Assembly (NCBI RefSeq): GCF_900114675.1
Contig: NZ_FOZM01000001.1
Coordinates: 682,001 to 746,000, forward strand
Direction of reading: 5' to 3'
Length of the DNA: 64,000 nucleotides
Source: Yoonia litorea
Lineage (GTDB): Bacteria > Pseudomonadota > Alphaproteobacteria > Rhodobacterales > Rhodobacteraceae
Shown: piece by piece, positions 21,620 through 43,105 of the stretch
Numbering within the stretch: position 1 is the stretch's first letter
Layout of the letters: the number at the start of each line of letters is the position of its first letter
Translations under genes and position numbers: made by a program
Notes under the pieces: generated by a model
The model's input: only the letters and a program-made list of their open reading frames with translations
What the model was told of the DNA's origin: nothing
The model's database searches: none

Positions 21620-22392
21620 CCCGTCACGAAACATTCCCCGAGACAGCAATCCGTGAAAAGGAACTGGTGCTCGCTACAGACCTGGATGGTACATTTCTGG
21701 GTGGAAGCGAAGAGGACCGGCAGAAATTCTACAGCTTTATCGAGGCAAACCGGCAGCGCATCGGTTTGATCTTTGTGACAGGACGCGATCCGAATTTTGT
21801 CCGCGAACTTACCCGCAAAAAAGGTGTACCCAAACCCGACTATGTGGTCGGTGATGTTGGCACCACCATTGCCTCCGTTGACCGGGATCACTTTCTCGTC
21901 CCGATTGCGCCGCTTGAAGAAGAAATCGAAAAGGCGTGGGCCAACGCCAATGGGCGCGTGCAGGCGGCACTGACCAAGATTGATGGTCTCCGCCTGCAAT
22001 CCACCGGCTTCCGCCACCGTGTCAGCTATGACATGGACCCCGACACATTTGATCGTCGCGCTCTCGATATCGTAGCCGATATGGGCCTTGATGCCCTGAT
22101 TTCGGATGATCGCTTTTTTGATGTTCTGCCAAAGGATGTCAGCAAAGGCCCATCACTATTGCGCCTTCTCGAACATCTGGAAATCGACAACCGCCGCACA
22201 CTCGTTGCCGGTGACACGCTCAACGACCTTTCGATGCTCAAGCTTGGCTTGCCTGCGGTCGCTGTTGGCGGATCAGAAGACGCCCTGATCGATGCGGTTT
22301 CTGGACTGGAGCACGTCCATGTCGCCAAAGGCGTCGGCGTTGCAGGTATCGCAGAAGCAATCCTCACAAAAAACATGCTGGCGAAAGCCTAA
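21616..22392 (+). CDS. HAD-family phosphatase, probable glucosylglycerol-phosphate phosphatase
   Basis: A 258-residue HAD subfamily IIB hydrolase. Motif I is ATDLDGTFL (nucleophile Asp), motif II lies in LIFVTGRD, and motif IV is AGDTLNDLSML with the two acidic metal ligands. It is coupled to gpsA by an ATGA overlap and lies 11 bp before the GT20 synthase gene. By position it should remove the phosphate from glucosylglycerol phosphate, as the HAD part of fused GgpPS enzymes does in some pseudomonads. Cyanobacterial StpA is a different, longer protein. A sucrose- or trehalose-phosphate phosphatase role is the alternative. Confidence 0.75.
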   Translation: MTRHETFPETAIREKELVLATDLDGTFLGGSEEDRQKFYSFIEANRQRIGLIFVTGRDPNFVRELTRKKGVPKPDYVVGDVGTTIASVDRDHFLVPIAPLEEEIEKAWANANGRVQAALTKIDGLRLQSTGFRHRVSYDMDPDTFDRRALDIVADMGLDALISDDRFFDVLPKDVSKGPSLLRLLEHLEIDNRRTLVAGDTLNDLSMLKLGLPAVAVGGSEDALIDAVSGLEHVHVAKGVGVAGIAEAILTKNMLAKA

Positions 22393-22403
22393 GGAGTCCC
22401 CCC

Positions 22404-23949: not shown

Positions 23950-24942
23950 CTATTGCACACCTGTCGCGCGCTTGAGAATATCGACACCCTGCATCTTCCA
24001 GAAGTGAAGCAAGTCGATAAATATCCAGTTTTCCGACAGCTTGTCCCCGTCGCGGCGATACATGTCGATGACGCGCATATCCCCGAACTGGCCTGTTGCT
24101 GGCATCCCCATAAACCCGCCTTCATGGCGGAGTGACAGGTTAGGGCGTCCGAAAAAGCCGCCGTATGATCCTTCTGCGATTTTAGCAACGTGCCCGATGA
24201 ATTTCCGGTCACGGAACGCCATGCGGAAGGGGCCTGCGTGTTGTTTGGCGTAACGCTCGATCGTGTATGTCGCGCCTATACCCGCAGGACCCCACCAGAT
24301 CATGTCTTCGTTCCAGGTGCGTCTGAGTTCATCCTCAAGCCCCGAAATATCGCCGCCGGTCCATCCGGCGATATCGCTGATCATGGCGTTGATCGCTGCC
24401 ATGGTCTTGGCGCCCTCGGCCGGATCGACGTCCTGAAAGTATAGTCCGTCATGGGTCAGTGGCCCCGGTTGCACAAGCGTTGCAGCCGTCTGCGGGCCGA
24501 ACGGATTCTGTCCGGCCTGCTGCATGAGGTGCGGAATGTCGAAATACATCGCCTCGTGGGTTATCCGACCGTCTTCGACTTTGTGAAAGGCCGCATAGCG
24601 CAGCATCGCGATCTTGCGTGTAGGACGAATGCCCAGCCAAGCGCCATCAAACAACCCCATGAGGTGACCCATCGAGGCCACCCAGAGCGACGCGCCATCA
24701 TCAATGAAGTTGCGCCCGGCGAAAAACAGGTCGAGCCGCCGCTGCATCGGCCTCAGTGCGGCCTGCAGCGGTTTCCAGAAGTGTGTTGCGACTTCTTGCG
24801 CATTGCTGAAATCGTCGAACGGGTGAAAGCCCTGCCACACCAGATCGGGCGCGCAATAGGTGCTCATCGCAGCTTCGGGGTCTTGTTTCAGCGCATCATA
24901 GTATGCGCGCACCAGGGATTTGGCGTCCTCAAACTCGCTCAT
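23950..24942 (-). CDS. Tandem SnoaL/NTF2-like protein A
   Basis: A 330-residue soluble protein made of two SnoaL-type NTF2-fold halves (about residues 5-150 and 185-320). Each half has an aromatic-rich core and a W.G..PAGIG or FHP-like pocket segment. It is clearly related to the protein at 30984-32024: both have a WxGPxGIG motif, an Arg-(H)-xxPF segment and an NWxxxDLL...GVD ending. SnoaL-fold enzymes include cyclases, isomerases, dehydratases and hydrolases, so the reaction cannot be named. It is the last gene of the minus-strand ABC transporter operon. Confidence 0.8.
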   Translation of the reverse strand: MSEFEDAKSLVRAYYDALKQDPEAAMSTYCAPDLVWQGFHPFDDFSNAQEVATHFWKPLQAALRPMQRRLDLFFAGRNFIDDGASLWVASMGHLMGLFDGAWLGIRPTRKIAMLRYAAFHKVEDGRITHEAMYFDIPHLMQQAGQNPFGPQTAATLVQPGPLTHDGLYFQDVDPAEGAKTMAAINAMISDIAGWTGGDISGLEDELRRTWNEDMIWWGPAGIGATYTIERYAKQHAGPFRMAFRDRKFIGHVAKIAEGSYGGFFGRPNLSLRHEGGFMGMPATGQFGDMRVIDMYRRDGDKLSENWIFIDLLHFWKMQGVDILKRATGVQ

Positions 24943-24981
24943 CGGTCTTGCTCATCAGGTAGGTGGAAACGTTGGTCGTGT

Positions 24982-25863
24982 TTACCCTTTTACGGCACCT
25001 GCGGTCAGGCCACTCACGATCTGTCGCTGGAAGAACAACACCAGCACAAAGAGCGGCAGCATCGCTGATACAACGGCGGCAACCGCATACATCACATTGC
25101 CTGCATCAAAAGTTGACCCGAGGAATGACGCAATCTTTGGCACCATTGTCTGGTTCTCTCGGCTCAGAAGCATCGATGTCACCGCAAAGTCGTTATAGGC
25201 CAGCAGGAAGCTAAACAGCCCTGTCGTGATCACGCCAGGCCACATGACCGGAATGATCACATAGCGGAACGCCTGAAACCGTGTGCACCCATCCACCATC
25301 GCGCTTTCATCCATGTCTTTGGGGATGTTGAGAAAGAAGGAATGCAGCATCCACAATGTAAACGGCTGATTGATAGCCACGAGCACGATGATTGTCGTGG
25401 GTAGGTGGCCCCAGAGGTTCCACTGAAAGAACGGCAAAAGGTAACCTGATACCAGCGTGATATGCGGCATGGCCCGAAACACGAGGGCTGCCATCAGGAT
25501 CCAGAACGCATAGCGATAACCCGACCGCGCCAGCGCATAGCCGCCCAAGGTTCCCAGCGTCAGCGAAATCACAACGACGCTGACAACGATGATCATTGTA
25601 TTCATCACCGCGCGCCAGAATTCATTTGTGACCCAAGCGCCGTAATAACCATTGCCCGTAAAAGGCGCGCCGGTTTCAACTGTGGTTCGCACACCCGTCA
25701 GGGCATAGGTCCAATCCGCCTTTGAGAAGAAGTCGGCCTCGACTTTGAAAGAACCCCACATGGTCCAGACAAAGGGGAAGGCCGCAAGGATCAGCCATAG
25801 AATGACAAATCCGGTGGAGACGATGACAAGGCCTTTGGGGCGTCTTTGGGTTGCAGCAGACAT
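24982..25863 (-). CDS. Carbohydrate-type ABC transporter permease (MalG/UgpE-like)
   Basis: A 293-residue inner-membrane permease with six hydrophobic segments. The EAA loop that contacts the ATPase is at DESAMVDGCTRFQAFRYVIIPVMWPG. Family MalG/UgpE (CUT1). It works with the adjacent permease, the binding protein at 26970-28202 and the ATPase at 28480-29532. The gap to the neighbouring permease gene is 12 bp, so they are co-transcribed. The solute is unknown; CUT1 transporters import sugars, polyols and glycerol phosphodiesters. Confidence 0.9.
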   Translation of the reverse strand: MSAATQRRPKGLVIVSTGFVILWLILAAFPFVWTMWGSFKVEADFFSKADWTYALTGVRTTVETGAPFTGNGYYGAWVTNEFWRAVMNTMIIVVSVVVISLTLGTLGGYALARSGYRYAFWILMAALVFRAMPHITLVSGYLLPFFQWNLWGHLPTTIIVLVAINQPFTLWMLHSFFLNIPKDMDESAMVDGCTRFQAFRYVIIPVMWPGVITTGLFSFLLAYNDFAVTSMLLSRENQTMVPKIASFLGSTFDAGNVMYAVAAVVSAMLPLFVLVLFFQRQIVSGLTAGAVKG

Positions 25864-25875
25864 GGTTGTCCTCTC

Positions 25876-26904
25876 CTAGGCGCGCTTGCGGTTAAAGTCG
25901 CGCCAGGTGCGCAGCAGCACTGGCGACAGAAGGATACAGACACCGACGATTGTCATCATCGAGGTCGCGGCAGCGGACCCGAAGAGCGCCGTGTCTCCGC
26001 GCAGATCATCGTAGATAAATGTACTGAGTGATGACGCATTCGCCTGCGCCGAGAAGGCCACGATCGGCTCGAACACCCTGAAGTTATCCATCAGCTGGAT
26101 CAGGATCACGAACACAACCAGCGGCATCATATAGGGGATTGTGACATAGCGGATGCGCTGCCAGCGGTTTGCGCCGTCAATCTGCGCAGCCTCCAGCGTT
26201 TCGCTCGGCACGGTCTGCAGGCCCGCGTAGAAGACAACAAAGGCAAACGGGGCAGAGTGCCAGATGCCGTAAATGAACAGCATCAGCCACGTGAGTGGTG
26301 CGGAGGCTTTGACCGATAATCGCGGGTCATCAAAGATGTTTTGCAAGGCAGCACCCAGAATACCGTCAGCATCCACCATCCAGAACAGCACAAGGCCACC
26401 GATCAGCGGTGTCACGATCATCGGCAGCAGCGAGATAAAGATTGTCGGTCCCTTCACGATGCGCGGCAGTGAATTGACGCCAAGCGCAATCGCCAGACCA
26501 AGGACAATTACGAAAGGTGTCACGATCGCAGTATAGGACAGCGTGAATGCCAAGGCCCGATAGAAGGGCAGGTTCATCAGGAATGACCCGAATTCCGACC
26601 AGCTTTCAGTGGTATTCCAGGCTTCAGAAACTTCGGCAAAGGCCAGATGGTTGCGGTCAGTGTATGTGCCAAATCCGTTAAAGCGCCCAAGCGGGTCAGC
26701 TTCCTGCAACGCACGTGTCGCCTCGACATCGACCACGACTTCTTCCTGGCATCCGAAGGGGCCGCAGTTCTCGGTGACGATGGTCACCTGATCATGTTTG
26801 ACGAAAAGCGACTGCGTCATGACAGAGCCAATCGGCAGTGCGATGAACAGGATCATCGCAAGGAGTGAGGGAAACATGAACCAGAAGAAAGTGCGATGTG
26901 GCAT
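25876..26904 (-). CDS. Carbohydrate-type ABC transporter permease (MalF/UgpA-like)
   Basis: A 342-residue permease, longer than its partner because a periplasmic insertion of about 80 residues follows the first helix (residues about 35-115, with the pair CGPFGC). Six transmembrane helices follow, and the EAA loop reads LEAAQIDGANRWQRIRYVTIP. It forms the heterodimeric channel with the downstream permease. The enlarged periplasmic loop resembles the MalF arrangement, which contacts the binding protein. It lies between the binding protein gene and the second permease. Confidence 0.9.
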   Translation of the reverse strand: MPHRTFFWFMFPSLLAMILFIALPIGSVMTQSLFVKHDQVTIVTENCGPFGCQEEVVVDVEATRALQEADPLGRFNGFGTYTDRNHLAFAEVSEAWNTTESWSEFGSFLMNLPFYRALAFTLSYTAIVTPFVIVLGLAIALGVNSLPRIVKGPTIFISLLPMIVTPLIGGLVLFWMVDADGILGAALQNIFDDPRLSVKASAPLTWLMLFIYGIWHSAPFAFVVFYAGLQTVPSETLEAAQIDGANRWQRIRYVTIPYMMPLVVFVILIQLMDNFRVFEPIVAFSAQANASSLSTFIYDDLRGDTALFGSAAATSMMTIVGVCILLSPVLLRTWRDFNRKRA

Positions 26905-26969
26905 GTTCGAGCCTCCAATCCTTAGGAAAGACAGGGCGCGACGATGCGCGCCCTGTCAGCATGCTTAGA

Positions 26970-28202
26970 TTACAGGAAGCCCTGTTCTCTTGCCGCAGCA
27001 GTGTAGGCTGCTTCGACATCGGACAGTGCCTGCTCGGCGCTTTCGTTGCCCTGCAGGAAGTCAGACAGTTCGTTGCCCAGTGCTGTGTGCAGAAGGCCCA
27101 TGAACGGCAGCATCGGGTAGGGGCGTGCGCCGCTTTGCGCTGTCGCCGCGACACCTGCTGCTGCTGGACCAGGTTCGAAGCCGTCAAGCAGCCACACGGC
27201 CAGATCGTTGTTCTCCGCGACCATCTCTGGCGAGAGGCCGTGAACCAGTGCAGCGAAGGTTGCTTCTGCATCTTCATCAGAGATGTTGGCAGAGATCGTG
27301 AAGCCGTCCCACCACAGTGTCGATGCAGGTGTGTCGCCACCGCCAACAGTCGGCGCGCCTGTCAGGACAGTCGAAGACACGATTTCTTCGGTTGAGCCTT
27401 CGTCATCAAGGATTGGGCCGCCGCGCGAACCCCACATTGTGGCAAGCGCAAGGTTGCCGGATTCCCACTCAGCCGCTGTCGCGTTTGAGTCGAATGTCAG
27501 GAAGTCCGGGTCAGACAGGTCAACCAGCTGCTTGAGCATGTTGAGAGCGGCGACGCCTTGCTCGTTGTTGATCGAGACCTGTGCTGTGCCTGGCTCAAAG
27601 AACTGGCCGCCATGGCCCAGATACATGTTCACGAACTCTTCGCCGAGGTTCCAACCTGTCATGGTGTTCATTGCGAACGGGTTTTCCATGATGCCGGCGT
27701 CTCTGATGGCCTGTGCTGCGGCAACAACTTCTTCGTAGGTTGTTGGAACATCGAGACCGACCTGCTCAAGAACGTCGGAGCGGTAGTAAAGGTGCTGTGC
27801 GTTCGCCATGAAGGCAATCGCCATGACCTGGCCGTCAATCGTGATCAGCTGCTGCGGCTGCAGGTCTTGACCGTATTTAGCAACGAGGTCATCCAGCGGG
27901 CGGATCAGACCCTCGTTCATCAGCGGAACGATGGAGCTGTTTGCAACAACTGCGGATGTGTATTCCGCTGGGTTCGCTGTCAGCGCGGCAACCTGCAGGT
28001 CGCGATGCTCTGTAGTGGCGTTGTGTTCGATTGTGACGCTATCGGTCTCGCACTCGCGTGCCTTCTCGACCATGGCGTGCAGAGCGCCAAAGTCATTGGA
28101 CAGAATGCGGATCGAGCCGGACTCAATGCCACAATCGGCATATGATGCCGTTGCTAGCAGTGTGGCCATGGTGCCAGCTGCGATGGTTTTCATAAATGAC
28201 AT
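26970..28202 (-). CDS. ABC transporter solute-binding protein (CUT1 type)
   Basis: A 410-residue periplasmic binding protein with a signal peptide cleaved near SYA-DCG (residue about 22). GGGAGGAT lies 9 nt ahead of the start. The overall layout and segments such as TYEEVVAAAQAIRDAG and NTMTGWNLGEEF fit the extracellular solute-binding family 1 used by CUT1 transporters. The ligand cannot be deduced. It is the first gene of the minus-strand transport operon and diverges from the ATPase/HisD-like operon. A LacI-type operator candidate lies in the shared promoter region. Confidence 0.88.
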   Translation of the reverse strand: MSFMKTIAAGTMATLLATASYADCGIESGSIRILSNDFGALHAMVEKARECETDSVTIEHNATTEHRDLQVAALTANPAEYTSAVVANSSIVPLMNEGLIRPLDDLVAKYGQDLQPQQLITIDGQVMAIAFMANAQHLYYRSDVLEQVGLDVPTTYEEVVAAAQAIRDAGIMENPFAMNTMTGWNLGEEFVNMYLGHGGQFFEPGTAQVSINNEQGVAALNMLKQLVDLSDPDFLTFDSNATAAEWESGNLALATMWGSRGGPILDDEGSTEEIVSSTVLTGAPTVGGGDTPASTLWWDGFTISANISDEDAEATFAALVHGLSPEMVAENNDLAVWLLDGFEPGPAAAGVAATAQSGARPYPMLPFMGLLHTALGNELSDFLQGNESAEQALSDVEAAYTAAAREQGFL

Positions 28203-28275
28203 GTCAGGTATCCTCCCTTTCGGACCCGATTTTGCGGACTTTGCCGCAGGTTAGCAGTGATTGAATCACCTTTTT

Positions 28276-28289
28276 TGCATTCGCATGCA
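28276..28289. promoter_or_regulatory. Candidate LacI-family operator
   Basis: TGCATTCGCATGCA is a near-perfect palindrome centred on CG, the usual centre of LacI-family operators, with one mismatched pair. It sits 74 bp upstream of the binding protein gene and about 190 bp upstream of the ATPase gene, in the divergent promoter region of a locus that encodes its own LacI protein. A weaker half-site (TTGCATACGCA) occurs at about 28448. The assignment is inference. Confidence 0.45.
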
Positions 28290-28479
28290 TTCAACTATGC
28301 GCAATTTTCTGATTGTAGCAAGAGAATTGTAAGGGGTAGACGCTGCCGAACTGTCTAATATTCATCGTTTTGTTGCGCGATGCCAAAGATGCGGGCTTAT
28401 CGCCGAAAAAGTTTCGCTTGCCAAGATCAGCCAATGATGCAAATTTCTTGCATACGCACCCAAAACTGAAGGCGGAATC

Positions 28480-29532
28480 ATGGCCGAAATCCAGCTCAAG
28501 AGTATTTCCAAGCGTTGGGGCAGCTTTGTCGGCGTCCAAAGTTTCGACCTGACGATCCCTGATCGCGAGTTTCTGGTGCTTCTTGGCCCGTCGGGGTGTG
28601 GCAAGACAACGACGATGCGCATGATTGCAGGGCTTGAGGGTATTACCGAAGGGGAAATCCTCGTTGATGGAAAGCGGGTCAACGACCTTGACCCCAAAGA
28701 CCGCGATGTCGCCATGGTGTTCCAGAGCTACGCGCTCTATCCCAATATGTCGGTTTACGAAAACATCCGCTTTCCATTGAAGGTGCGCGGGATTGATCCC
28801 TCAACCCATAACGAGAAGGTCATGCGCGCGTCGGCGATGGTCGAACTCGATGATTTCCTTCACCGCAAGCCCGCGGAACTTTCAGGGGGCCAGCGTCAGC
28901 GCGTGGCGCTTGCGCGGGCGATTGTGCGGGAACCCAACGTCTTTTTGATGGATGAGCCGCTCTCCAACCTTGATGCAAAGCTGCGTGTCTCAACACGCGC
29001 GCAGATCAAGAACCTCAGCCACGAGCTGGCGGTCACGACAATCTACGTGACCCACGACCAGATCGAGGCCATGACGCTCGCTGACCGTGTGGTGGTGATG
29101 AACAAGGGTGTGGTCCAGCAGGTCGGCACACCCACCGATATCTACGACAACCCGGCGAATACCTTTGTCGCAAGCTTCATCGGCAGTCCGGCGATGAACC
29201 TGATCGACGGCACCGTCTCTGGCGGGACCTTCACCGCACCCAAGACATCCGTCGCCGGAACCGGATTGCCAGACGGTGATGTCACGCTTGGTTTCCGCGC
29301 CGAGGATGCGTCATTGGCCACCGCCGGTGAGGGTCAGATCACCGCCAACATCTACTCGCTTGAGCTTCTTGGTGACGCCACAATGATCACCGTGCGGATC
29401 GGTCCGTCACTCGTCAGCGTCAAAGCCGATAAATCCTTCCGTGCCGAGATCGGCGACCCTGTCAGCATCGCGATCCCGCATGATCAGTGCCATTTCTTTG
29501 ACGCGGGCTCCGGCCAGAGACTTCAGAACTAG
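28480..29532 (+). CDS. ABC transporter ATPase (UgpC/MalK-like)
   Basis: A 350-residue ATPase of the sugar importer class with Walker A GPSGCGKTT, Q-loop FQSYALYPNMSV, signature LSGGQRQRVALARA, Walker B VFLMDEPLSNLD and the H-loop in YVTHDQIEAMT. Residues about 240-350 form the C-terminal OB-fold regulatory domain typical of MalK/UgpC. It energises the two permeases encoded divergently at 24982-26904. It is also the first gene of the plus-strand catabolic operon, tying uptake to the downstream enzymes. Confidence 0.93.
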   Translation: MAEIQLKSISKRWGSFVGVQSFDLTIPDREFLVLLGPSGCGKTTTMRMIAGLEGITEGEILVDGKRVNDLDPKDRDVAMVFQSYALYPNMSVYENIRFPLKVRGIDPSTHNEKVMRASAMVELDDFLHRKPAELSGGQRQRVALARAIVREPNVFLMDEPLSNLDAKLRVSTRAQIKNLSHELAVTTIYVTHDQIEAMTLADRVVVMNKGVVQQVGTPTDIYDNPANTFVASFIGSPAMNLIDGTVSGGTFTAPKTSVAGTGLPDGDVTLGFRAEDASLATAGEGQITANIYSLELLGDATMITVRIGPSLVSVKADKSFRAEIGDPVSIAIPHDQCHFFDAGSGQRLQN

Positions 29533-29649
29533 TCCGCTATGAAACAGATCACCACAACAGGCGAACCATGACCGCGCAACCGCAGGCTGGGAGGCCTGCG
29601 AGCGCGCCGCAATAGCGCCCCGAGAATCCCGAACTGTGAGGCACAGAAG

Positions 29650-30978
29650 ATGGCAATCACCTTTCTTAAACGTTCCAAACCCGAATCCGAAAAAGCAGCC
29701 GAGGATGCAAAGGTCCGCGGCATTGTCGAAAGCGGCCTGAAAGATATTGAGGCCCGCGGCGATGCGGCCGTGCGCGAAATGTCGGAGAAGTTCGACAACT
29801 ACAGCCCTGACAGCTTCCGCCTGACGGATGGTCAGATCGAGGGGCTCATGTCCAAGGTCTCCGCCCGCGACATGGAAGATATCAAATTCGCGCAAGAGCA
29901 GGTGCGCAACTTTGCGCAGGCCCAGCGGGACTCAATGCTGGATATCGAAGTCGAGACCCTGCCGGGTGTCGTTCTTGGCCATCGCAACATTCCTGTGCAG
30001 TCTGTCGGATGCTACGTGCCTGCGGGCAAGTTTCCAATGGTCGCCTCGGCGCATATGTCGGTCGCCACGGCAACAGTTGCGGGCGTGCCGCGCATTATTG
30101 CGGCCACAGCGCCGTTCCAGGGCGAGCCCAACCCGGCTGTCGTGGCCGCGATGCACCTTGGCGGCGCGCATGAGATTTATGCGCTTGGTGGCATTCAGGC
30201 CGTCGGCGCAATGGCCATCGGCACGGAATCCATCGAACCTGTGCATATGCTTGTCGGCCCCGGCAACGCCTTCGTGGCCGAAGCCAAGCGCCAGCTTTAC
30301 GGTCGCGTCGGCATCGACCTTTTCGCAGGTCCGACCGAAACAATGGTCATCGCAGACGAGACCGTTGACGCTGAACTCTGTGCGACTGATCTCTTGGGGC
30401 AAGCGGAGCATGGCTACAACTCTCCGGCGTGCATGATCACCAATTCGCGCAAGCTGGCCGATGCGACGCTTGCAGAAATTGACCGGTTGCTGACCATCCT
30501 GCCAACGGCTGAAACCGCATCGGCGAGCTGGCGTGACTACGGCGATATGATTGTCTGCGACAGCCACGAAGAGATGCTGCAGGTCGCCAACGATATGGCC
30601 TATGAGCACGTGCAGATCATGACCGACCGTGATGATTGGTATCTCGACAACATGCACAGCTACGGCGCGTTGTTCCTTGGTCCACGCACGAACGTGGCGA
30701 ACGGGGACAAGGTCATCGGCACCAATCACACGCTGCCCACCAAAAAGGCCGGTCGCTATACTGGTGGTCTTTGGGTCGGTAAGTTCCTGAAAACGCACAG
30801 CTACCAGCGGGTTCTGACGGACGAGGCTGCGACGATGATCGGTGAATACGGCTCACGTCTGTGTATGCTGGAAGGCTTTGTCGGTCATGCCGAGCAGTGC
30901 AACATCCGTGTGCGTCGCTACGGCGGGCGCAATGTGCCTTACGGTGCTGCGGTCATGCCACAGGAAGCTGCGGAATAA
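29650..30978 (+). CDS. HisD-like zinc/NAD alcohol dehydrogenase of a catabolic pathway
   Basis: A 442-residue member of the histidinol dehydrogenase family. The catalytic and metal residues of HisD are all in place with matching spacing: Gln251 and His254 (GQAEHG), the acid/base pair Glu319-His320 (YEHVQIM), Asp353 (NGDKV) and His413 (VGHAEQ). The segment after GTNHTLPT differs from biosynthetic HisD and reads [11 protein letters not shown], as in degradative HisD-like enzymes such as sulfopropanediol dehydrogenase HpsN. No other his genes are present. It therefore probably oxidises a primary alcohol on the imported substrate to a carboxylate by two NAD-linked steps. The substrate is unknown; DHPS is only one possibility. 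Confidence 0.8.
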
Positions 30979-30983
30979 TCCAG

Positions 30984-32024
30984 ATGACGCCTGCGGAGCT
31001 CAAATCACTCTATGCGCCTTTCCAAAAGGCGGTGGCGGGTGCATCGGCAGACAAGATCCGTCACGCAGTGACGGCGCTCTTCGCTGATGACGCGGCCCTT
31101 CACCTCTGCCATCCATTCGGCGCACTGACAGGCGGTGCTGCATATCTCGACACCTGTCTGGTGCCACTGCGCGCGGCGATCCCTGATCTGGAACGCCGCG
31201 ACATGATCCTTCTTGCGGGAACGACTGACGAGGGTCAGAACTGGATCGGTGCGATGGGAAATTACATGGGGACGTTTCTCGCCCCGCTCCTTGATATTCC
31301 GCCGACCGGAAACCTCGTGCATATGCGGTATCACGAATTCTTCCGCATCGAGGACGGCAAGATTGTCGAGATGCAGGCGATCTGGGACATTCCCGAACTG
31401 ATGATGCAGGCGCGGGCGTGGCCAATGTCTCCGCAGTTGGGCGCATTCCTCTGCACACCGGCCCCGATGAGCGGTGACGGGCTGACCGCGTCAGGCGATG
31501 GTCAGGCAACCTATGAACATGTGGTGGCAATGCTCACCGACCTCTGCCGTTATCCCTCAGAAGGCGGGCCTGAGGTGATGAACCTGCAGAAATACTGGCA
31601 CCCTCAAGTCAACTGGTACGGCCCGTCAGGGATCGGAACAGCGCGAGGGATTGACGGTTTCAGACATTGGCATCAGGCCCCGTTCCTGCGCGGTATGCCC
31701 GACCGCAAACTCGATGCGATGGGCGATCTGATGTCCCATTGGTTTGCCGAAGGTGCCTATGTCTGCGAAACTGGTTGGCCGAACATGCGCCTGACAATCA
31801 CGGGCGACGGCTGGATGGGAATCCCTCCGGTCAACAAAGAGGTTCTGATGCGCAGTCTAGATTTCTGGCGGGTCGAGGATGGCCTTATCCGTGAGAACTG
31901 GGTGCTGGTCGATCTTCTGGATGTTTACCGCCAGATCGGCGTCGATGTTCTGGGCCGGATGCGTGAATTCAACAAGGCGCGCAACCTCGGGCCGATCAGC
32001 ATTCCTCCGGGGGAGGCGGCATGA
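30984..32024 (+). CDS. Tandem SnoaL/NTF2-like protein B
   Basis: The start at 30984 lies 5 bp after the dehydrogenase stop; a longer frame reaching back into that gene is a shadow. The 346-residue product has two SnoaL-type halves (about residues 5-150 and 175-325). It is a paralogue of the protein at 23950-24942, sharing the WYGPSGIG, PFLRGMPDRK and ENWVLVDLLDVYRQIGVDVL segments. No signal peptide is seen. It may catalyse a cyclisation, isomerisation or dehydration in the pathway, but no residue set allows a firm choice. Its stop overlaps the start of a 31-codon ORF as ATGA. Confidence 0.8.
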   Translation: MTPAELKSLYAPFQKAVAGASADKIRHAVTALFADDAALHLCHPFGALTGGAAYLDTCLVPLRAAIPDLERRDMILLAGTTDEGQNWIGAMGNYMGTFLAPLLDIPPTGNLVHMRYHEFFRIEDGKIVEMQAIWDIPELMMQARAWPMSPQLGAFLCTPAPMSGDGLTASGDGQATYEHVVAMLTDLCRYPSEGGPEVMNLQKYWHPQVNWYGPSGIGTARGIDGFRHWHQAPFLRGMPDRKLDAMGDLMSHWFAEGAYVCETGWPNMRLTITGDGWMGIPPVNKEVLMRSLDFWRVEDGLIRENWVLVDLLDVYRQIGVDVLGRMREFNKARNLGPISIPPGEAA

Positions 32025-32116
32025 GGGGGCGTGCATATCAGGCGGCGACACTCGCCCAGAAGGGGCAGTCCGCGCCGTTCAAACATAACCAGCCAATCGC
32101 GGGGCAAAAGCGATGA
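32021..32116 (+). CDS. Candidate 31-residue basic microprotein
   Basis: A 32-codon frame begins with ATG at 32021, overlapping the stop of SnoaL protein B as ATGA. It ends with TGA at 32114-32116, overlapping the start of the SDR gene, again as ATGA. A strong purine-rich site (GGGGGAGG) precedes it. It would encode MRGRAYQAATLAQ followed by a basic tail, 31 residues in all, with seven Lys/Arg/His and no acidic residue. It could be a real small protein or a coupling ORF that carries ribosomes from one gene to the next. No homologue is recognised. Confidence 0.5.
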   Translation: MRGRAYQAATLAQKGQSAPFKHNQPIAGQKR

Positions 32117-32877
32117 CATTGCCAGCAGTCCCTTCCTTCCGGCTTGATGGAAAACGTGCGCTGGTGACGGGCGCGTCCTCCGGTATTGGTGAGGCTTGCG
32201 CCGTGGCACTGGCCGCCGCCGGGGCAGAAGTGACACTTGCCGCACGGCGGGCCGACAAGCTGCGCACCCTCGAAGATGCCATCAAGGGGCAGGGCTGGCA
32301 GGCCCGGTCACTGGCCATGGACGTCACTGACATTTCCGAGACCACCGCAAAGATCGCCGAGGCTGGCCCGTTTGATATTCTCGTCAACTCCGCTGGGCTG
32401 GCGCGCCACTCTGCAGCACTTGAAACGCAGGAAGCGGACTTCGATGCGGTGTCGGATATCAACGTCAAAGCGGCCTATTTTCTCAGCGTTGCCGTCGCCA
32501 AAGGTCTGGTCGCGGCTGGCAAGGCTGGTAGTCTGATCAACATCTCCAGCCAGATGGGCCATGTCGGCGGCGTCGACCGTGCCGTCTACTGCGCCACCAA
32601 ACACGCGGTCGAGGGCTTCACCAAAGCCATGGCGATCGAGTTCGGACCGCACAACATTCGCGTCAATACGATCTGCCCGACGTTTATACTGACGGACCTG
32701 ACGCGCCCGACCTTTGGTGATCCGGTGAAACGCCAGTGGATCGAAGACAAGATCGCATTGCCGCGCGTGGGCGAGGTCGAGGATATCTCGGGCGCGGCTG
32801 TTTTCCTTGCTTCAGACGCCGCTGGCATGATCACCGGCAGTGCGCTCTTGATTGACGGAGGGTGGACAGCCGCATGA
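32113..32877 (+). CDS. Short-chain dehydrogenase/reductase
   Basis: A 254-residue classical SDR. The cofactor motif TGASSGIG is near residue 20, NSAG near residue 95, and the catalytic set Ser (NISSQMG) with YCATK follows at about residues 142-160. The end is the family-typical FLASDAAGMITGSALLIDGGWTAA. An Arg pair (ARRADK) after the second strand suggests NADP may be accepted. It most likely oxidises or reduces a secondary alcohol on the pathway intermediate. Start and stop are both in ATGA overlaps (with the microprotein and the LacI gene). Confidence 0.9.
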   Translation: MTLPAVPSFRLDGKRALVTGASSGIGEACAVALAAAGAEVTLAARRADKLRTLEDAIKGQGWQARSLAMDVTDISETTAKIAEAGPFDILVNSAGLARHSAALETQEADFDAVSDINVKAAYFLSVAVAKGLVAAGKAGSLINISSQMGHVGGVDRAVYCATKHAVEGFTKAMAIEFGPHNIRVNTICPTFILTDLTRPTFGDPVKRQWIEDKIALPRVGEVEDISGAAVFLASDAAGMITGSALLIDGGWTAA

Positions 32878-33893
32878 AGAGCCGCGTCACAGCCTTGGAG
32901 GTCGCAGAACGCGCAGGCGTCAGCCAGTCTGCCGTCAGCCGTGTCTTTACGCCGGGGGCATCCGCCTCTGAAAAGACCGCCGCCAAGGTCCGCCGCGCCG
33001 CAATGGAGCTTGGCTACAGGCCCAATATCCTCGCGCGCGCGATGGTGTCCGGGAAATCGCGGATGATCGGCCTGCTTGTGGCGTATCTGAACAACCAGTT
33101 CTATCCTGAGGTGCTGGAAAAACTGTCGAACGCGCTGCAGGCAAAAGGCTATCACGTCCTTGTCTTCATGGCGCCACAGATCGCCGGCGACATAGATCAT
33201 GTCATTCAGGAAATCCTCGACTATCAGGTCGATGGCATCGTCGCGGCCTCCGTCGCGCTGTCCTCAGAACTGACAAACCGTTGCGAAGAAGCCGGCGTGC
33301 CGGTCGTGCTTTTCAACCGTGCGCAGTCTGGCGACAACTTCTCTGCGGTAACATCCGACAACGTCTCTGGCGGACGGAAACTGGCGGAATTTCTTGTCGC
33401 AGGCGGCCATGAAAAGATCGGCTACATCGCCGGATGGGAAGACGCCTCAACCCAGCGGGACCGCGAATTCGGCTTCCGTGCCGGCATCGAGATGGCAGGC
33501 CAGCAAATTGTGGCCCGCGAGGTTGGAAACTTCGCGCATCTGCAAGCGGCAGAGGCGGCGCGGCGGATGTTTGACCGCCCCGACCACCCTGATGCGGTCT
33601 TTGCCTGCAACGACCACATGGCCTTTGCGGTCATGGACGTGCTGCGCTTTGAACTGGGCCTCTCGGTGCCAGGCGATGTCTCTGTTGTGGGCTATGATGA
33701 TGTGCCCAATGCCGCCTGGCCTGCCTACAACCTCACCACCGTCCGGCAATCGGCCAATCGCATGGTCGCCGAGACGGTCGCGATCCTCGTGGATCAGATC
33801 GAAAACCAGAATAAAGAACCTCGCCGCATCGCGCTTGACGGACCACTGAAGGTGCGCGGTTCGGCACGTATCCCGGAAGGATGGAAGACATGA
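32874..33893 (+). CDS. LacI-family transcriptional regulator
   Basis: The start at 32874 forms an ATGA overlap with the SDR stop and is preceded by GGAGGGTGG; a GTG at 32862 is possible but less likely. The product has 339 residues. The N-terminal helix-turn-helix (TALEVAERAGVSQSAVSRVF) and hinge with YRPNILARAM are typical LacI features. The effector domain (about residues 60-339) has the periplasmic-binding-protein fold, with VFACNDHMAFAVMD and VVGYDDVPNAA. Encoded inside the catabolic operon, it probably represses the locus and responds to the imported compound. Confidence 0.93.
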   Translation: MKSRVTALEVAERAGVSQSAVSRVFTPGASASEKTAAKVRRAAMELGYRPNILARAMVSGKSRMIGLLVAYLNNQFYPEVLEKLSNALQAKGYHVLVFMAPQIAGDIDHVIQEILDYQVDGIVAASVALSSELTNRCEEAGVPVVLFNRAQSGDNFSAVTSDNVSGGRKLAEFLVAGGHEKIGYIAGWEDASTQRDREFGFRAGIEMAGQQIVAREVGNFAHLQAAEAARRMFDRPDHPDAVFACNDHMAFAVMDVLRFELGLSVPGDVSVVGYDDVPNAAWPAYNLTTVRQSANRMVAETVAILVDQIENQNKEPRRIALDGPLKVRGSARIPEGWKT

Positions 33894-34873
33894 AGGGCTT
33901 TTCAAACCGTTGGAAAGATTTCCCAGACTATATCATCGGCATCACCAAAGAAATCTGGGAGGACCGCGGCGTCGGGACCCTGAACCATTACTATGCGCCT
34001 GATATTCCTGTCCGTTCGCCAATGGGAATCCAGCGCGGTAATCAGGCCGTCATTGCCTCGACCATGGCGACCATCAATGAATTCCCCGACCGCGAGCTTC
34101 TGGGCGAAGATGTCATCTGGTCCGGTGATGAAGACACTGGCTTTTTGTCGTCACACCGCCTGTTGACCAAGGCCACCCATACCCGTGACGGACAATTCGG
34201 CGCTGCCAGCGGCAAGTCTTGGCAGATCTATGTCATTGCGGATTGTGCGGCCAAGGAAGACACGATCTACGACGAATGGCTGATCCGCGATTACGGCGGC
34301 ATCGTCAGGCAACTGGGCATGGACCCGCGCGATTACGCATCTGCCCTGATCGCGCGCGAGGGCGGGCCGGACAAGTGCAGCAAACCTTTCACACCTGCGA
34401 TGGACGTGGACGGCGGCTATCACGGCACCGGCAATGACAATGAATGGGGTCAGCGATACGCCGATACGCTGACCCGGATTATGAACCACGACTTCACCCA
34501 TATCCGTGACAGCTATGACCGCGCCTGCATCGGTGAATACGCCGGGGCCAATCGCGCCGTCGGCTGGGAGCGTATTCTGGAATTCTGGGTCGGGTTGCGC
34601 GCGTCTTTCCCGCATGCGGAATTCAAGATCCACCATCAGATCGGGATGCAAGGCAACATGCTTTCCCCCCGCGCCGCTGTCCGCTGGTCACTCGATGGCA
34701 AGCATGACGGGTGGGGCGTCTTCGGCGAGCCCACAGGCGCGCATGTCCACGTCATGGGCATGTGCCACGCAGAGTTCGGACCCTACGGGCCTGATGGCAT
34801 CGGCCTGCGCCGTGAATGGGCGCTTTATGATGAAGTCGCCATCTGGAAACAGATCCTGATGCAGCAAAGCTGA
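33890..34873 (+). CDS. Tandem SnoaL/NTF2-like protein C
   Basis: The start at 33890 overlaps the LacI stop as ATGA, with GGAAGG upstream; an ATG nine bases earlier is also in frame. The product has 327 residues and two SnoaL-like halves (about 10-160 and 180-325). It is more divergent than proteins A and B. It shares the layout, but its motifs (NHYYAPDIPVRSPMGI, WERILEFWVGLRASFPHAEF) follow a different SnoaL subgroup. The position after the regulator shows it belongs to the same operon. Reaction unknown. Confidence 0.75.
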   Translation: MKGFSNRWKDFPDYIIGITKEIWEDRGVGTLNHYYAPDIPVRSPMGIQRGNQAVIASTMATINEFPDRELLGEDVIWSGDEDTGFLSSHRLLTKATHTRDGQFGAASGKSWQIYVIADCAAKEDTIYDEWLIRDYGGIVRQLGMDPRDYASALIAREGGPDKCSKPFTPAMDVDGGYHGTGNDNEWGQRYADTLTRIMNHDFTHIRDSYDRACIGEYAGANRAVGWERILEFWVGLRASFPHAEFKIHHQIGMQGNMLSPRAAVRWSLDGKHDGWGVFGEPTGAHVHVMGMCHAEFGPYGPDGIGLRREWALYDEVAIWKQILMQQS

Positions 34874-34904
34874 CGAAAGGACGCCACCACGCAGGGTCGA
34901 AACC

Positions 34905-35441
34905 ATGGATATCTACAGCGCCGCTGAAAAACTGATGAAGATGGATGACGCCACATGGCGGCGTCATGCCAATCCGCTCAGCGGCTGGACACGGTTTCTC
35001 TTCGGGATGGCGCCGCTCTTTCTGGCGATCTACGCAAGGGTCTGGATCGGATGGTGGACCGTGCCACTGGTCTTGCTCATCGTGCTGTGGATCTGGCTCA
35101 ACCCGCGCCTTTTTGCCGAACCCAAGGATTTCGGGGCGTGGATGTCGCGCGGGGTTCTGGGCGAGCGTATCTGGTTGGCCCGCGATCGCTATGATGTGCC
35201 AGCGCACCATGTCCCCGTCGCGCACGCCACAACCGGCTTTGCTGCGTTCTTTGCGCTCTGCGCCATTTGGGGTGTGATCGTCCTCGATCCGTGGATCACG
35301 ATCTTGGGCGTCGCTGGCACCATCATCTCAAAGGCATGGTTCGTGGACCGGATGGTCTGGCTCCATGTCGAACTGACTGACATTCCAATGGGTGCGGCGA
35401 TGCCGGCACCGACCTTACCTCAACTGAAAGATCAACCATGA
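34905..35441 (+). CDS. DUF6653-type membrane protein
   Basis: A 178-residue protein with four hydrophobic segments (about residues 30-47, 50-66, 108-125 and 128-145). The opening SAAEKLMKMDDATWRRHANPLSGWTR and the WLNPRLF segment fit the family I know as DUF6653, whose function is not known. It is 31 bp downstream of SnoaL protein C and its stop overlaps the bicupin start as ATGA, so it belongs to the operon. It might anchor the pathway or assist export or import, which is speculation. Confidence 0.65.
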   Translation: MDIYSAAEKLMKMDDATWRRHANPLSGWTRFLFGMAPLFLAIYARVWIGWWTVPLVLLIVLWIWLNPRLFAEPKDFGAWMSRGVLGERIWLARDRYDVPAHHVPVAHATTGFAAFFALCAIWGVIVLDPWITILGVAGTIISKAWFVDRMVWLHVELTDIPMGAAMPAPTLPQLKDQP

Positions 35442-36421
35442 CCCCGCAAGAGATGGAATCCCGCATTGTCCGCTATGGCGACCTGCAACCTTGCAAGACC
35501 GCCTTTATCGACGCGCATACACCCGGCTCTGACCAGAAAGAGAACTTCACCATCATCGGTGGCGGCGTTTCCGAAAGCCCAGATCAGCACGTCCATATCT
35601 CGATCCCGCATGGCTTCAACATCGGCGCTGCGGGTCAGCCGCCCAAATGCCGGAACTCTTTGCATGACCACCACACAGCCGAGGCTTTCTTTGTCCTCAA
35701 GGGCCGCTGGCGGTTTTTCTGGGGCCGCTACGGGACAGCCGGTGAGGTCGTGCTGGAAGAGGGGGACATTTTCAACATCCCGACCGGCATCTTCCGCGGT
35801 TTCGAAAACATCGGCACCGATTACGGGATGATCATGGCAATCCTCGGCGGTGACGACGCCGGTGGCGGCGTGATGTGGGCGCCGCAAGTGATCGAAGATG
35901 CCGCCGACCACGGTCTGATCCTTGGTGAGAACGGCAAACTCTACGACAGCAAAAAGGGCCAAAGCCTGCCCGAAGGTGTCGCGCCGATGCCGCTGATGTC
36001 GGATGCCGAATTGGCCAAACGGCCAGAGCCTTCAACACGCGACGTTCTGCCAAACCATGTGGCCCGCTACTGGGATATGATGGCCATGGCCGACAAGACC
36101 CCCGTGCAGGTGATCGGCGAGAACGGATTGCTGAAGGACAAGCCGGGATTTGAAGTCGGGTTCATGAACCGCAACTCGGCCTCCGAAGAGATGCACACCC
36201 ATCGATATCCCTCAGTCCTTATGCCAATGCGCGGGCATTGGCGCGTCAACTGGGAGGCTGGAAATGGATATGAGGCCGGAAGCGCCACCCTCGCACCCGG
36301 TGACACCATGTCCGTTCCAGAGGATCTGCCCCACAACGCGGTTCCGTCGATGACAGGTGAGGCGAGCCTGTATCACGTCGTCGCAACCGGCGATCCCGCT
36401 GGTCCGACCTGGAAAGGTTAA
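35438..36421 (+). CDS. Bicupin protein
   Basis: A 327-residue protein with two cupin domains. The first carries the metal-site motif LHDHHTAEAFFVLKG (about residues 72-86) with GDIFNIPTGIFRGF downstream. The second carries EEMHTHRYPSVLMPMRGHWR and PEDLPHNAVPS. Both domains therefore keep His ligands. Bicupins include ring-cleaving dioxygenases, isomerases and hydrolases. No gentisate-dioxygenase-specific pattern is evident, so the reaction is open. The gene starts in an ATGA overlap with the DUF6653 gene. After its stop comes the 54-nt structured element. Confidence 0.8.
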   Translation: MTPQEMESRIVRYGDLQPCKTAFIDAHTPGSDQKENFTIIGGGVSESPDQHVHISIPHGFNIGAAGQPPKCRNSLHDHHTAEAFFVLKGRWRFFWGRYGTAGEVVLEEGDIFNIPTGIFRGFENIGTDYGMIMAILGGDDAGGGVMWAPQVIEDAADHGLILGENGKLYDSKKGQSLPEGVAPMPLMSDAELAKRPEPSTRDVLPNHVARYWDMMAMADKTPVQVIGENGLLKDKPGFEVGFMNRNSASEEMHTHRYPSVLMPMRGHWRVNWEAGNGYEAGSATLAPGDTMSVPEDLPHNAVPSMTGEASLYHVVATGDPAGPTWKG

Positions 36422-36429
36422 CAGAAAAC

Positions 36430-36483
36430 CGTATGCACAGCCTGTGTACGTCCGGTGCACAGGTTGTGCACAGAAATCATACG
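36430..36483 (+). repeat. 54-nt structured repeat, copy 1
   Basis: The element is closed by the inverted pair CGTATG (36430-36435) and CATACG (36478-36483). Inside are a short hairpin (CACA/TGTG) and a 6-bp hairpin (GTGCAC with GTGCAC, 5-nt loop), giving a three-way-junction shape. A second copy at 59661-59714 has the same length and 42 of 54 identical bases. It lies between the bicupin stop and the MetE-like start, 16 bp before the latter. It could be an operator, an RNA element or a dispersed palindromic repeat. Confidence 0.7.
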
Positions 36484-36499
36484 CATCAGGAGAGGTTAG

Positions 36500-37624
36500 A
36501 TGGCGAAAGTCTTAACAACGCACGTGGGGTCATTGCCGCGCACACAGGAGGTCGTGGACTACATTTTTGCCCGCGAGCGTAAAGAGGCTTACGACGCCGA
36601 CGCCTTTGATGCGGCCATGACAGAAGCGGTCTCTGAGACTGTCAAAAAGCAGGTGGATGCAGGGATCGATATCGTCAGCGACGGCGAGACCTCGAAGATT
36701 TCCTATGCCACTTACGTCAAGGACCGCTACACCGGTTTTGACGGCGACAGTCCACGTAATGCACCCGCTGACCTCAAGCAATTTCCCAGCTTTCTCAAGC
36801 GCTTGGCTGATGACGGCGGTACACCTAAATACGCGCGCCCGATGTGTGTGGGCGAGGTCAAATCCAAAGGGCAGGGCGAGCTTGAGAAGGATATCGCCAA
36901 CCTCAAAGCCGCCATGTCCACCCACGGGGCAGAGCGCGGCTTTATGAACGCCGCATCGCCCGGCGTGATCTCGCTTTTCCTGCAAAACGACTACTACAAA
37001 ACCCGCGAAGCCTATCTCGCGGCTTTGGCCGATGCGATGAAGGCGGAATACGAAACCATCGTCGCCTCCGGACTGGACCTGCAACTCGATTGCCCAGACC
37101 TCGCGCTCTCAAGACATATGCTTTTCAATGACTTAAGCGATGATGAGTTCATCAAGATTGCGCAAAGCCACGTCGAGGCTCTGAACCACGCGCTCGCCGA
37201 TGTGCCGGCCGAAAAGGTCCGTATCCACATCTGCTGGGGCAACTACGAAGGACCCCATGTCTGCGACATTCCGATGTCCAAAATGTTCGATACGCTGATG
37301 TCCGCCAAGGCCCGCTACGTCCTGTTCGAGACATCAAATCCCCGCCACGGACACGAGTGGACCGTTTTCCGCGACCGCAAGAATGAAATCCCTTCCGGCA
37401 AGGTGCTGGTGCCAGGTGTCGTTGATACAACAACCAACTTTGTCGAACACCCTGAACTCGTCGCGCAACGTATTGAAAGATTTACCGATATTGTTGGCGC
37501 AGAGCGTGTAATTGCTGGCTCCGACTGTGGCTTTGGCACGTTTGCAGGCTTTGGTGCTGTTGATCCTGAGATCGCCTACGCCAAGCTCGAAGCGCTCGTC
37601 GAAGGTGCCAAACTCACGTCGTGA
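36500..37624 (+). CDS. MetE C-terminal-like zinc protein (thiol alkyltransferase family)
   Basis: A 374-residue single-domain relative of cobalamin-independent methionine synthase. The zinc ligands of this superfamily are visible as His243 and Cys245 (IHICWGN) and Cys343 (SDCGFG). The N-terminal half of full-length MetE is absent, so it is not the classical enzyme. Family members of this size include core methionine synthases and epoxyalkane:coenzyme M transferase, all of which activate a thiolate on zinc. It could demethylate a methylated pathway compound or join a thiol to it. It is preceded by AGGAGAGG and followed by the hydrolase gene in a GTGA overlap. Confidence 0.8.
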   Translation: MAKVLTTHVGSLPRTQEVVDYIFARERKEAYDADAFDAAMTEAVSETVKKQVDAGIDIVSDGETSKISYATYVKDRYTGFDGDSPRNAPADLKQFPSFLKRLADDGGTPKYARPMCVGEVKSKGQGELEKDIANLKAAMSTHGAERGFMNAASPGVISLFLQNDYYKTREAYLAALADAMKAEYETIVASGLDLQLDCPDLALSRHMLFNDLSDDEFIKIAQSHVEALNHALADVPAEKVRIHICWGNYEGPHVCDIPMSKMFDTLMSAKARYVLFETSNPRHGHEWTVFRDRKNEIPSGKVLVPGVVDTTTNFVEHPELVAQRIERFTDIVGAERVIAGSDCGFGTFAGFGAVDPEIAYAKLEALVEGAKLTS

Positions 37625-38328
37625 CCACACCCCTCGTTCTCCTGCCTGGCATGATGTGCGACGCGCGGCTCTTTGGACCGCAGGTTGCCGCTCTCGAAGA
37701 CGCGCGCGACGTCCGCGTCATGCCAATCCACGCACACCAGACTGTTGCGGCATTGGCAAACGATATCCTGCAGGACGCGCCGGAAAGGTTCGCCATCGCC
37801 GGACTGTCGATGGGTGGGATCGTCGCGATGGAGGTGCTGCGCCAGGCACCAGATCGTATCGCAGGCCTTGCCTTGATGGATACCAATCCGCTGGCCGAGG
37901 CACCCGAGGTGGCAGCCCGTCGTGACGGCCAGATTGACAAGGTCGATAAGGGTGGTCTGGCCAGCGTCATGCGAGACGAGATGAAGCCGAACTATCTTGC
38001 GCAAACCTCTGATCGCGAAGCCATTCTCGATCTGTGCATGGCGATGGCGCTGGACCTTGGGCCGCAGGCATTTATCAACCAGTCGCGCGCCCTTGCCGCG
38101 CGCCCTGATCAGCAAGGGACACTGGCTGCCTATCGCGGTCCCGCGCTTGTTTTATGCGGGGCAGAGGACACGCTTTGCCCGATCCACCGACATGAACTGA
38201 TGCACGCGCTGATGCCGCAAAGCCACCTTGAAATTATCCCGCAAGCAGGCCACCTGCCGACCCTCGAAGCGGCCGATCAAACCACAGCCGCGCTGAAACA
38301 CTGGCTGGGCACAATACCAGATCACTAG
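37621..38328 (+). CDS. Alpha/beta hydrolase
   Basis: A 235-residue alpha/beta-fold hydrolase starting at GTG 37621, in a GTGA overlap with the MetE-like stop. The nucleophile elbow is GLSMGG (Ser at about residue 62), the acid probably lies in CGAEDTLCP, and the catalytic His in AGHLPTLE. The sequence opens with LVLLPGMMCDARLF, the oxyanion-hole strand. It is the last recognisable gene of the catabolic operon and probably cleaves an ester, lactone or thioester intermediate. Substrate unknown. Confidence 0.85.
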   Translation: MTTPLVLLPGMMCDARLFGPQVAALEDARDVRVMPIHAHQTVAALANDILQDAPERFAIAGLSMGGIVAMEVLRQAPDRIAGLALMDTNPLAEAPEVAARRDGQIDKVDKGGLASVMRDEMKPNYLAQTSDREAILDLCMAMALDLGPQAFINQSRALAARPDQQGTLAAYRGPALVLCGAEDTLCPIHRHELMHALMPQSHLEIIPQAGHLPTLEAADQTTAALKHWLGTIPDH

Positions 38329-43046: not shown

Positions 43047-43105
43047 TCAGCTGACTGCCGGAAAAAAGAGGCCGGCACCAGATGTCCAAAGGGAGGGACA
43101 GGACA

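Follow-up and report, generated by a model that had tools for sequence, protein, structure and literature searches.

Why would a bacterium keep an ATP-binding cassette (ABC) importer beside a HisD-like dehydrogenase, three tandem-SnoaL proteins, a bicupin and a MetE-like protein, and on what compound could such a combination act? The question is raised by positions 23950..38328 of a stretch of 64,000 nucleotides (the window) from the genome of Yoonia litorea (assembly GCF_900114675.1, contig NZ_FOZM01000001.1, positions 682,001 to 746,000). The locus looks like a fourteen-gene block, common to many ocean and some soil bacteria and jointly switched, that imports a compound and breaks it down to pyruvate. 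It probably encodes an uncharacterised, co-regulated catabolic pathway in which known families are assembled in an unfamiliar combination. More specifically, and tentatively at a probability of roughly 40%, we read the locus as the greater part of a regulon under LacI control that would take up a small polyhydroxylated compound, which might be a polyol, an aldose or a sugar acid, and break it down oxidatively by a non-phosphorylative route.

Conservation of the gene set

Dozens of named Rhodobacteraceae and related bacteria keep the gene set together. A scan with one genome per species gave at least 584 bicupin-encoding stretches; because the best 80 of them were taken, the following counts describe close relatives. 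Many of these 80 loci end at contig ends. The gene for the bicupin (35438..36421, plus strand) is most often accompanied by those for SnoaL C (33881..34873; 79 of the 80 loci), the LacI-family regulator (32862..33893; 77), the MetE-like protein (36500..37624; 70), a short-chain dehydrogenase/reductase (SDR; 32113..32877; 69) and the HisD-like dehydrogenase (29650..30978; 66), all on the plus strand. They are followed by ABC permease 2, of the carbohydrate uptake transporter 1 (CUT1) type according to the annotation of relatives (24982..25863, minus strand; 59), SnoaL B (30984..32024, plus strand; 58), permease 1 (25876..26904, minus strand; 58) and the SBP_bac_1 solute-binding protein (26970..28202, minus strand; 55). 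Rarer partners are the UgpC/MalK-type ABC ATPase (28480..29532, plus strand; 51), an alpha/beta hydrolase paired with an RraA-like protein in relatives (37621..38328, plus strand; 50), SnoaL A, a tandem-SnoaL protein of 330 amino acids (23950..24942, minus strand; 11), and a DUF6653 protein (34905..35441, plus strand; 1). Two counts with differing thresholds gave 58 and 60 loci for SnoaL B, and 50 and 51 for the hydrolase.

Conservation extends beyond these close relatives. Among 20 loci that we chose from the 41 genomes of the class with a cupin match, counted at thresholds that differ slightly from those above, HisD, MetE and LacI genes occur in 17 each, SDR in 16, SnoaL C in 15, the hydrolase in 13, RraA in nine and HpcH in two. 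The 41 matches, at E 1e-20 or better, come from 385 sampled class genomes, and some are distant or partial; at E 1e-30 the bicupin was matched in 24 of 398 genomes of the phylum. The HisD clade was found in 56 of the same 385 genomes, which divide into 32 with both genes, 24 with HisD only and nine with the cupin only (p = 1.5e-23, ignoring kinship between genomes). Plasmids of Sinorhizobium medicae and Ensifer adhaerens encode bicupin homologues at 69–73% identity; in two of these plasmid loci (L134, L138), the importer, HisD, SDR, LacI, cupin and RraA are present together with weak SnoaL (28–29%) and hydrolase matches, and the MetE-like gene is absent. In three genomes of 1.4–1.6 Mb (G259, G337, G161), the SnoaL, MetE-like, cupin and HisD genes form one block.

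The preliminary description of the locus had proposed looking for conserved co-occurrence of these families, which is seen across Rhodobacteraceae, the class and the genus. Its portrayal of a conserved and probably co-regulated catabolic locus is borne out by this conservation, together with the shared palindrome described below, and its failure to match the genes to any described route agrees with the open-licence literature of PubMed Central, in which we found no paper on such a gene set. The restriction to a marine metabolite is not supported: since plasmids of S. medicae and E. adhaerens carry bicupin homologues and much of the gene set, the substrate need not be marine. Because the set occurs in many genera, in 30 of 56 genomes of the genus and largely in the three small genomes, it should serve a common compound.

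The HisD-like dehydrogenase

The nearest solved relatives of the HisD-like protein are the sulfopropanediol 3-dehydrogenase HpsN (8v35; E 4e-117, 48% identity) and the dehydrogenase of (R)-2,3-dihydroxypropane-1-sulfonate (DHPS) (8wwe; E 1.2e-105, 44% identity). In an alignment of 97 sequences, the locus clade comprises 83 that are more than 55% identical to the window protein, itself counted. Q251, H254, E319, H320, D353, H360 and E408 are found in all 97 sequences and H413 in 96, the exception being the cut chain of 8wwe; we take their zinc-binding and catalytic roles to be those of HisD. These zinc and catalytic-type residues are common to HpsN and 8wwe, and NAD-dependent conversion of an alcohol to a carboxylate would be expected here too. 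At positions on which both DHPS enzymes agree, however, the window protein differs (R127K, H130M, S375W, H377G); among the 97 sequences, 72 have M at position 130 and 18 have L. Judged from its sequence, the enzyme is related to sulfopropanediol dehydrogenase and belongs to a clade of its own, whose context also differs in having an ABC importer, LacI, SnoaL and cupin genes. Two further family members are encoded in the same genome: L002, 80% identical to 8wwe, is likely the DHPS enzyme of this organism, and L003, which shares 38% identity with the locus protein, is a candidate for the HisD of histidine biosynthesis. In six relatives (L035, L055, L071, L089, L101, L109), a second HisD-like gene, 41–43% identical, lies on the opposite strand near the locus, accompanied in L055, L071 and L101 by an amidase gene.

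An RraA-like aldolase encoded apart from the locus

When 106 loci, the window included, were clustered, an RraA-like gene was found in 63, the window not among them. Open reading frames (ORFs) for this clustering, for the three small genomes and for the RraA contexts and HisD-only loci described below were called with a greedy script that extends starts too far. (The family names of clusters left out of the Pfam scans, and of the neighbours of distant hydrolase-RraA pairs, were assigned by eye.) The genome of Y. litorea encodes an RraA-like copy, 70% identical, on another contig (C5), so the window does not hold the complete pathway that had been ascribed to it. The protein matches Pfam PF03737 with 60.3 bits (cut-off 24.5); the best named NCBIfam subfamily gives 43.9 bits, below its cut-off of 208. 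Across 56 genomes of the genus, the cupin is found in 30, RraA (E 1e-50) in 32 and both in 30 (Fisher p = 7e-14, kinship between genomes being ignored). The two RraA-positive genomes among the 26 without a cupin are both incomplete assemblies (72% and 81%). RraA lies far from the cupin in many relatives, and in all 16 unlinked contexts viewed in full, the alpha/beta hydrolase gene stands alongside it in a mostly shared neighbourhood.

In 14 distant loci, which comprise paralogues and loci of other classes or of remote members of this class, an HpcH/HpaI gene is present in ten (two of these provided the query), RraA in three and both in one. The best NCBIfam model for the HpcH variant is HpaI, with 195 bits against a cut-off of 369, and the variants match solved aldolases of the HpaI, YfaU and GarL types. 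HpcH/HpaI aldolases stand in for RraA in other lineages. As one or the other recurs with the locus, a pyruvate-type aldolase looks like a regular last step, and the tie between locus and aldolase is well supported.

The RraA-like gene of Y. litorea is divergent from an Amidohydro_2 gene (L162:8536-10296), and the best copy of the palindrome described below lies in between. The Amidohydro_2 protein resembles fuconolactonase, below the NCBIfam cut-off. We rejected this lactonase from the pathway: only five of 60 genomes, its own included, have a match at E 1e-40, and 119 relatives' loci gave none at E 1e-8, so that it is at most accessory. A paralogous cluster (L153, L156) encodes an ABC importer, a cupin, an HpcH aldolase and a weak hydrolase match, with HisD and SnoaL unmatched; L153 also encodes a sugar-kinase-like SBD_N/NBD_C protein.

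A shared palindrome and candidate LacI operators

The octamer CGTATGCA occurs in 14 of 24 divergent intergenic regions, and after one shuffle per region no octamer occurred in more than three. The octamer belongs to the palindrome TTGCATACGTATGCAA, which with up to three mismatches has 74 sites in 42 of 94 loci: 18 are labelled as lying between the genes for the solute-binding protein and the ATPase, 25 lie inside over-extended ORFs of these two genes and were taken as the same divergent position, and the rest are scattered. In a control covering 20 of the 94 loci, TTGCATACGTATGCAA had 17 sites, compared with a median of 0 and a maximum of 6 for 30 shuffled palindromes. In relatives, 28 pairs of sites lie within 400 bp of each other, 13 of them at a spacing of 122–126 bp.

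Two candidate operators, each with three mismatches to the relatives' consensus, lie 173 bp apart between the divergent transcripts of the window: TTGCATTCGCATGCAT (28275..28290), 73 bp from the start of the solute-binding protein gene, and TTGCATACGCACCCAA (28448..28463), directly before the ATPase start. Support that depends less on the regions behind the consensus comes from the Y. litorea genome, whose sole site with up to two mismatches precedes the distant RraA match by 87 bp, and from L243 and L246, where a one-mismatch site precedes the unlinked hydrolase-RraA pair by 35 bp. The palindrome is strong in relatives and weak in the window; joint regulation is moderately supported, and the LacI protein may act through these candidate operators. 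For 54 LacI groups, a published account (PMC4052901) goes no further than 'sugar metabolism' and names no particular pathway.

The SnoaL, bicupin and MetE-like proteins

SnoaL A, B and C all match Pfam SnoaL above the cut-off, and relatives' loci carry several SnoaL types, one of them single-domain. An AlphaFold2 (AF2) model of SnoaL C (predicted local distance difference test, pLDDT, 94.7) has two similar NTF2-like halves. Its top fold match is the tandem lasalocid epoxide hydrolase 3rga (13% identity), although the overall superposition is poor, with template modelling (TM) scores of 0.33–0.38; other near folds are single-domain cyclases such as IdmH (6hnn; 20–21% identity). Both known proteins act in a polyketide context, whereas the SnoaL proteins here stand in a catabolic one.

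In the N-terminal half of the bicupin, the metal-type motif H76, H78 and E82 is kept. The motif-2 histidine of cupin dioxygenases is absent from all 25 aligned sequences, which have R120 at this position. The AF2 model of the bicupin (mean pLDDT 72.6, residues 18–57 being poorly predicted) matches the folds of oxalate decarboxylase, quercetinase and salicylate dioxygenase at a TM score of about 0.5, which we rejected as a basis for assigning its chemistry because the match is too generic.

The MetE-like protein has H243, C245, E277 and C343 (H-x-C, E, C) in at least 97% of 85 sequences, presumably the zinc site of MetE. It shares these residues with the catalytic domain of the B12-independent methionine synthase and differs in being single-domain, in its place in a catabolic locus and in its score (best NCBIfam equivalog 103.2 bits, cut-off 406). 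In L254, a HisD-SDR pair is succeeded on the same strand, 35 bases past the SDR stop codon, by a gene for a homocysteine S-methyltransferase (PF02574, 179 bits), a lone instance suggesting that the chemistry may include the transfer of a methyl group to homocysteine.

A possible pathway and the case against it

How might these proteins act together? The ABC importer would take up the compound, and the HisD-like enzyme would turn a primary alcohol that adjoins a secondary one into a carboxylate. The SDR, whose gene lies close by, might then oxidise the adjacent hydroxyl to give a 2-oxo acid. Dehydration or isomerisation would fall to the tandem-SnoaL proteins, and the bicupin and the alpha/beta hydrolase might rearrange and open the product. 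Finally, the RraA-like aldolase, or HpcH/HpaI elsewhere, would cleave a 4-hydroxy-2-oxo acid to pyruvate and an aldehyde. The MetE-like protein could pass a methyl group from the substrate or an intermediate to a thiol, homocysteine or another; the substrate could plausibly be both polyhydroxylated and methylated, and its methyl group is possibly transferable. The expected sequence of oxidation to a 2-oxo acid and retro-aldol cleavage also features in non-phosphorylative sugar-acid pathways with HpcH/HpaI aldolases such as GarL and YfaU. In place of their dehydratase family, the locus has tandem SnoaL, bicupin and MetE-like proteins. Only cluster 17, of the enolase superfamily, is dehydratase-type among the identified extra clusters (RraA, GMC, methyltransferase, amidase, 17, 18, 19, 21), and it occurs in eight of 106 loci, on the opposite strand.

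Two reduced loci (L249, L250), both among the HisD-only loci discussed below, combine an importer of the tripartite ATP-independent periplasmic (TRAP) type, of its TAXI subtype (NMT1_3), with LacI, HpcH, HisD and SDR genes; L250 additionally encodes a DRL-type oxidoreductase. They represent a predicted simpler sister pathway, and their content suggests a core chemistry of alcohol to acid, neighbouring alcohol to ketone, and retro-aldol cleavage, in an order that we infer. The TRAP binding protein of the Roseibium variant best matches the solved structures 4p47, 4p9k, 4pdh, 7bbr and 4nq8, some of which are probably erythronate, pantoate or sugar-acid binders.

If the compound were named, five little-known groups (the tandem SnoaL, bicupin, MetE-like and RraA-like proteins and the HisD clade) could be annotated with it, and a carbon flux measurable by exometabolite surveys would be added. 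The palindrome and the separately encoded aldolase offer an immediate genetic handle on the pathway.

Several findings weigh against the proposed oxidative breakdown or parts of it. The NCBIfam hisD model TIGR00069 scores the HisD-like protein at 414.9 (cut-off 243.8), a score that is not decisive because the protein is closer to HpsN (44–48%) than to L003 (38%). Of the 56 class genomes carrying the HisD clade, 24 lack a cupin match. In 13 HisD-only loci fetched from these 24 genomes, an SDR gene adjoins HisD in seven (one divergent) and HpcH or RraA lies nearby in five; SnoaL A, B and C were unmatched at E 1e-8 in all 13, so the SnoaL and cupin proteins may serve a separate branch. Conversely, L148 and L153–L156 have a cupin and an aldolase gene and lack HisD, and since both kinds of partial locus occur, the locus looks assembled from modules. 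The chemistry of the bicupin is not fixed, given R120 where the motif-2 histidine is usual. Four of five plasmid loci, and 12 of the 14 distant ones, lack the MetE-like gene, and the proposed methyl transfer draws on residue conservation and one neighbouring gene. The palindrome count is not independent, because the consensus was derived from the same relatives' regions, and at three mismatches the Y. litorea genome has seven sites compared with five for a reversed control. A palindrome lies within 450 bp upstream of RraA in only one of 30 loci scanned (from 34 genus hits), and only three of 17 fully viewed RraA contexts have a site at the start of RraA or of the hydrolase-RraA pair; a palindrome before unlinked RraA genes was rejected as a general rule on these two counts. 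The substrate and the individual steps are predictions.

Alternative substrates

Could the substrate be a ring? In the degradation of a cyclitol or of a mycosporine- or gadusol-type compound, the HisD-like enzyme would oxidise a ring CH2OH, the SnoaL proteins would bring the ring closer to an aromatic by dehydration, the bicupin would open it, the hydrolase and RraA would act as in meta-cleavage, and the MetE-like protein would remove an O-methyl group. Tandem SnoaL, bicupin, hydrolase and RraA/HpcH proteins would resemble such a dehydrate-then-cleave logic, RraA and HpaI are both familiar from ring-cleavage routes, and the HpcH variant has HpaI as its best model, though at 195 bits below the cut-off of 369. 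The absence of SnoaL matches from the 13 HisD-only loci would also fit, as would the quercetinase, salicylate dioxygenase and oxalate decarboxylase folds found for the bicupin model, were the match (TM about 0.5) not generic. There is, however, no direct sign of such a substrate; R120 replaces what we take to be the third histidine of cupin ring-cleavage enzymes; L148, L153, L154 and L156 have the cupin without a SnoaL match; and methyl ethers are presumably poor donors for cobalamin-free methyl transfer. We regard a cyclic substrate of this kind as unlikely. The narrower proposal of a route for mycosporine- or gadusol-type sunscreens or a related O-methylated cyclic polyol would have the HisD-like enzyme oxidise a CH2OH group that the ring bears next to a tertiary alcohol, the SnoaL proteins dehydrate the ring, the bicupin open it, RraA cleave the tertiary hydroxy acid that results and the MetE-like protein carry out a cobalamin-free demethylation. 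It is very unlikely; if true, it would explain a main fate of such compounds in seawater and soil.

The other alternatives fare worse. That the HisD-like protein is HpsN and the locus degrades a sulfonate, DHPS, is prompted by its best solved relatives, 8v35 and 8wwe, yet the identities of 48% and 44% are low beside the 80% between L002 of the same genome and 8wwe. The window protein also departs from both DHPS enzymes at R127K, H130M, S375W and H377G, residues that may contact the sulfonate, and no sulfonate-cleaving family was present among the ten locus proteins scanned, the genome not having been searched for one. We consider this highly improbable. Recycling of glucosylglycerol is brought to mind by the synthase gene that ends 58 bases before the locus (GgpS equivalog at 22404-23891, 669 bits, cut-off 569), and such solutes can presumably be carried by ABC sugar importers. 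A tblastn comparison with GgpS at E 1 found nothing in 119 loci of relatives, which mostly cover only about 10 kb on each side of the cupin, and Pfam revealed no glycoside hydrolase, phosphorylase or kinase among the fourteen locus proteins, which leaves the idea a slim chance. DHPS and glucosylglycerol are both disfavoured as substrates, the former by the divergence of the HisD-like protein and the latter by the missing GgpS match in these loci of relatives. That the genes are independent and mere neighbours could be argued from the modules that occur apart, with HisD lacking the cupin in 24 of 56 class genomes. Mere neighbourhood is scarcely credible, given that dozens of named Rhodobacteraceae and related bacteria retain the set and have a palindrome in common, and given the co-occurrence across the genus with RraA, a gene often unlinked.

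Gene calls and neighbouring genes

The two divergent transcripts of the preliminary description stand: 14 of its 15 named genes are confirmed by ORFs and translations, with Pfam matches for all fourteen, and several plus-strand genes are indeed linked by short overlaps. The fifteenth, a 'microprotein', is an ORF of 31 amino acids (32021..32116, plus strand) that exists, is unconserved and is probably no gene. Sixteen relatives encode a SnoaL B of more than 60% identity and, on the same strand, an SDR; in 14 of them these genes overlap by 3–4 bases, whereas the window has a gap of 88 bases, and the best tblastn match of the peptide in 119 relatives' loci has an E value of only 0.41. The microprotein was rejected as a functional part on these two results; the ORF is most likely the by-product of a small insertion. 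The DUF6653 protein, found in one of the 80 close loci (L112) and none of the 20 class loci, was rejected as a core part and is considered accessory. A scan for promoters and terminators gave results at chance level. The probable start of SnoaL B is 30984, the listed ORF from 30861 being over-extended into HisD.

On the plus strand at 20477-23891, the genes for a glycerol-3-phosphate dehydrogenase, a sucrose-phosphatase-like HAD protein and the glucosylglycerol-phosphate synthase stand in series and likely form a glucosylglycerol osmolyte operon. Beyond the other end of the locus, at 41113-44542 on the plus strand, lie purine-degradation genes for an allantoinase/OHCU decarboxylase fusion, a ureidoglycolate lyase and a xanthine-type permease.

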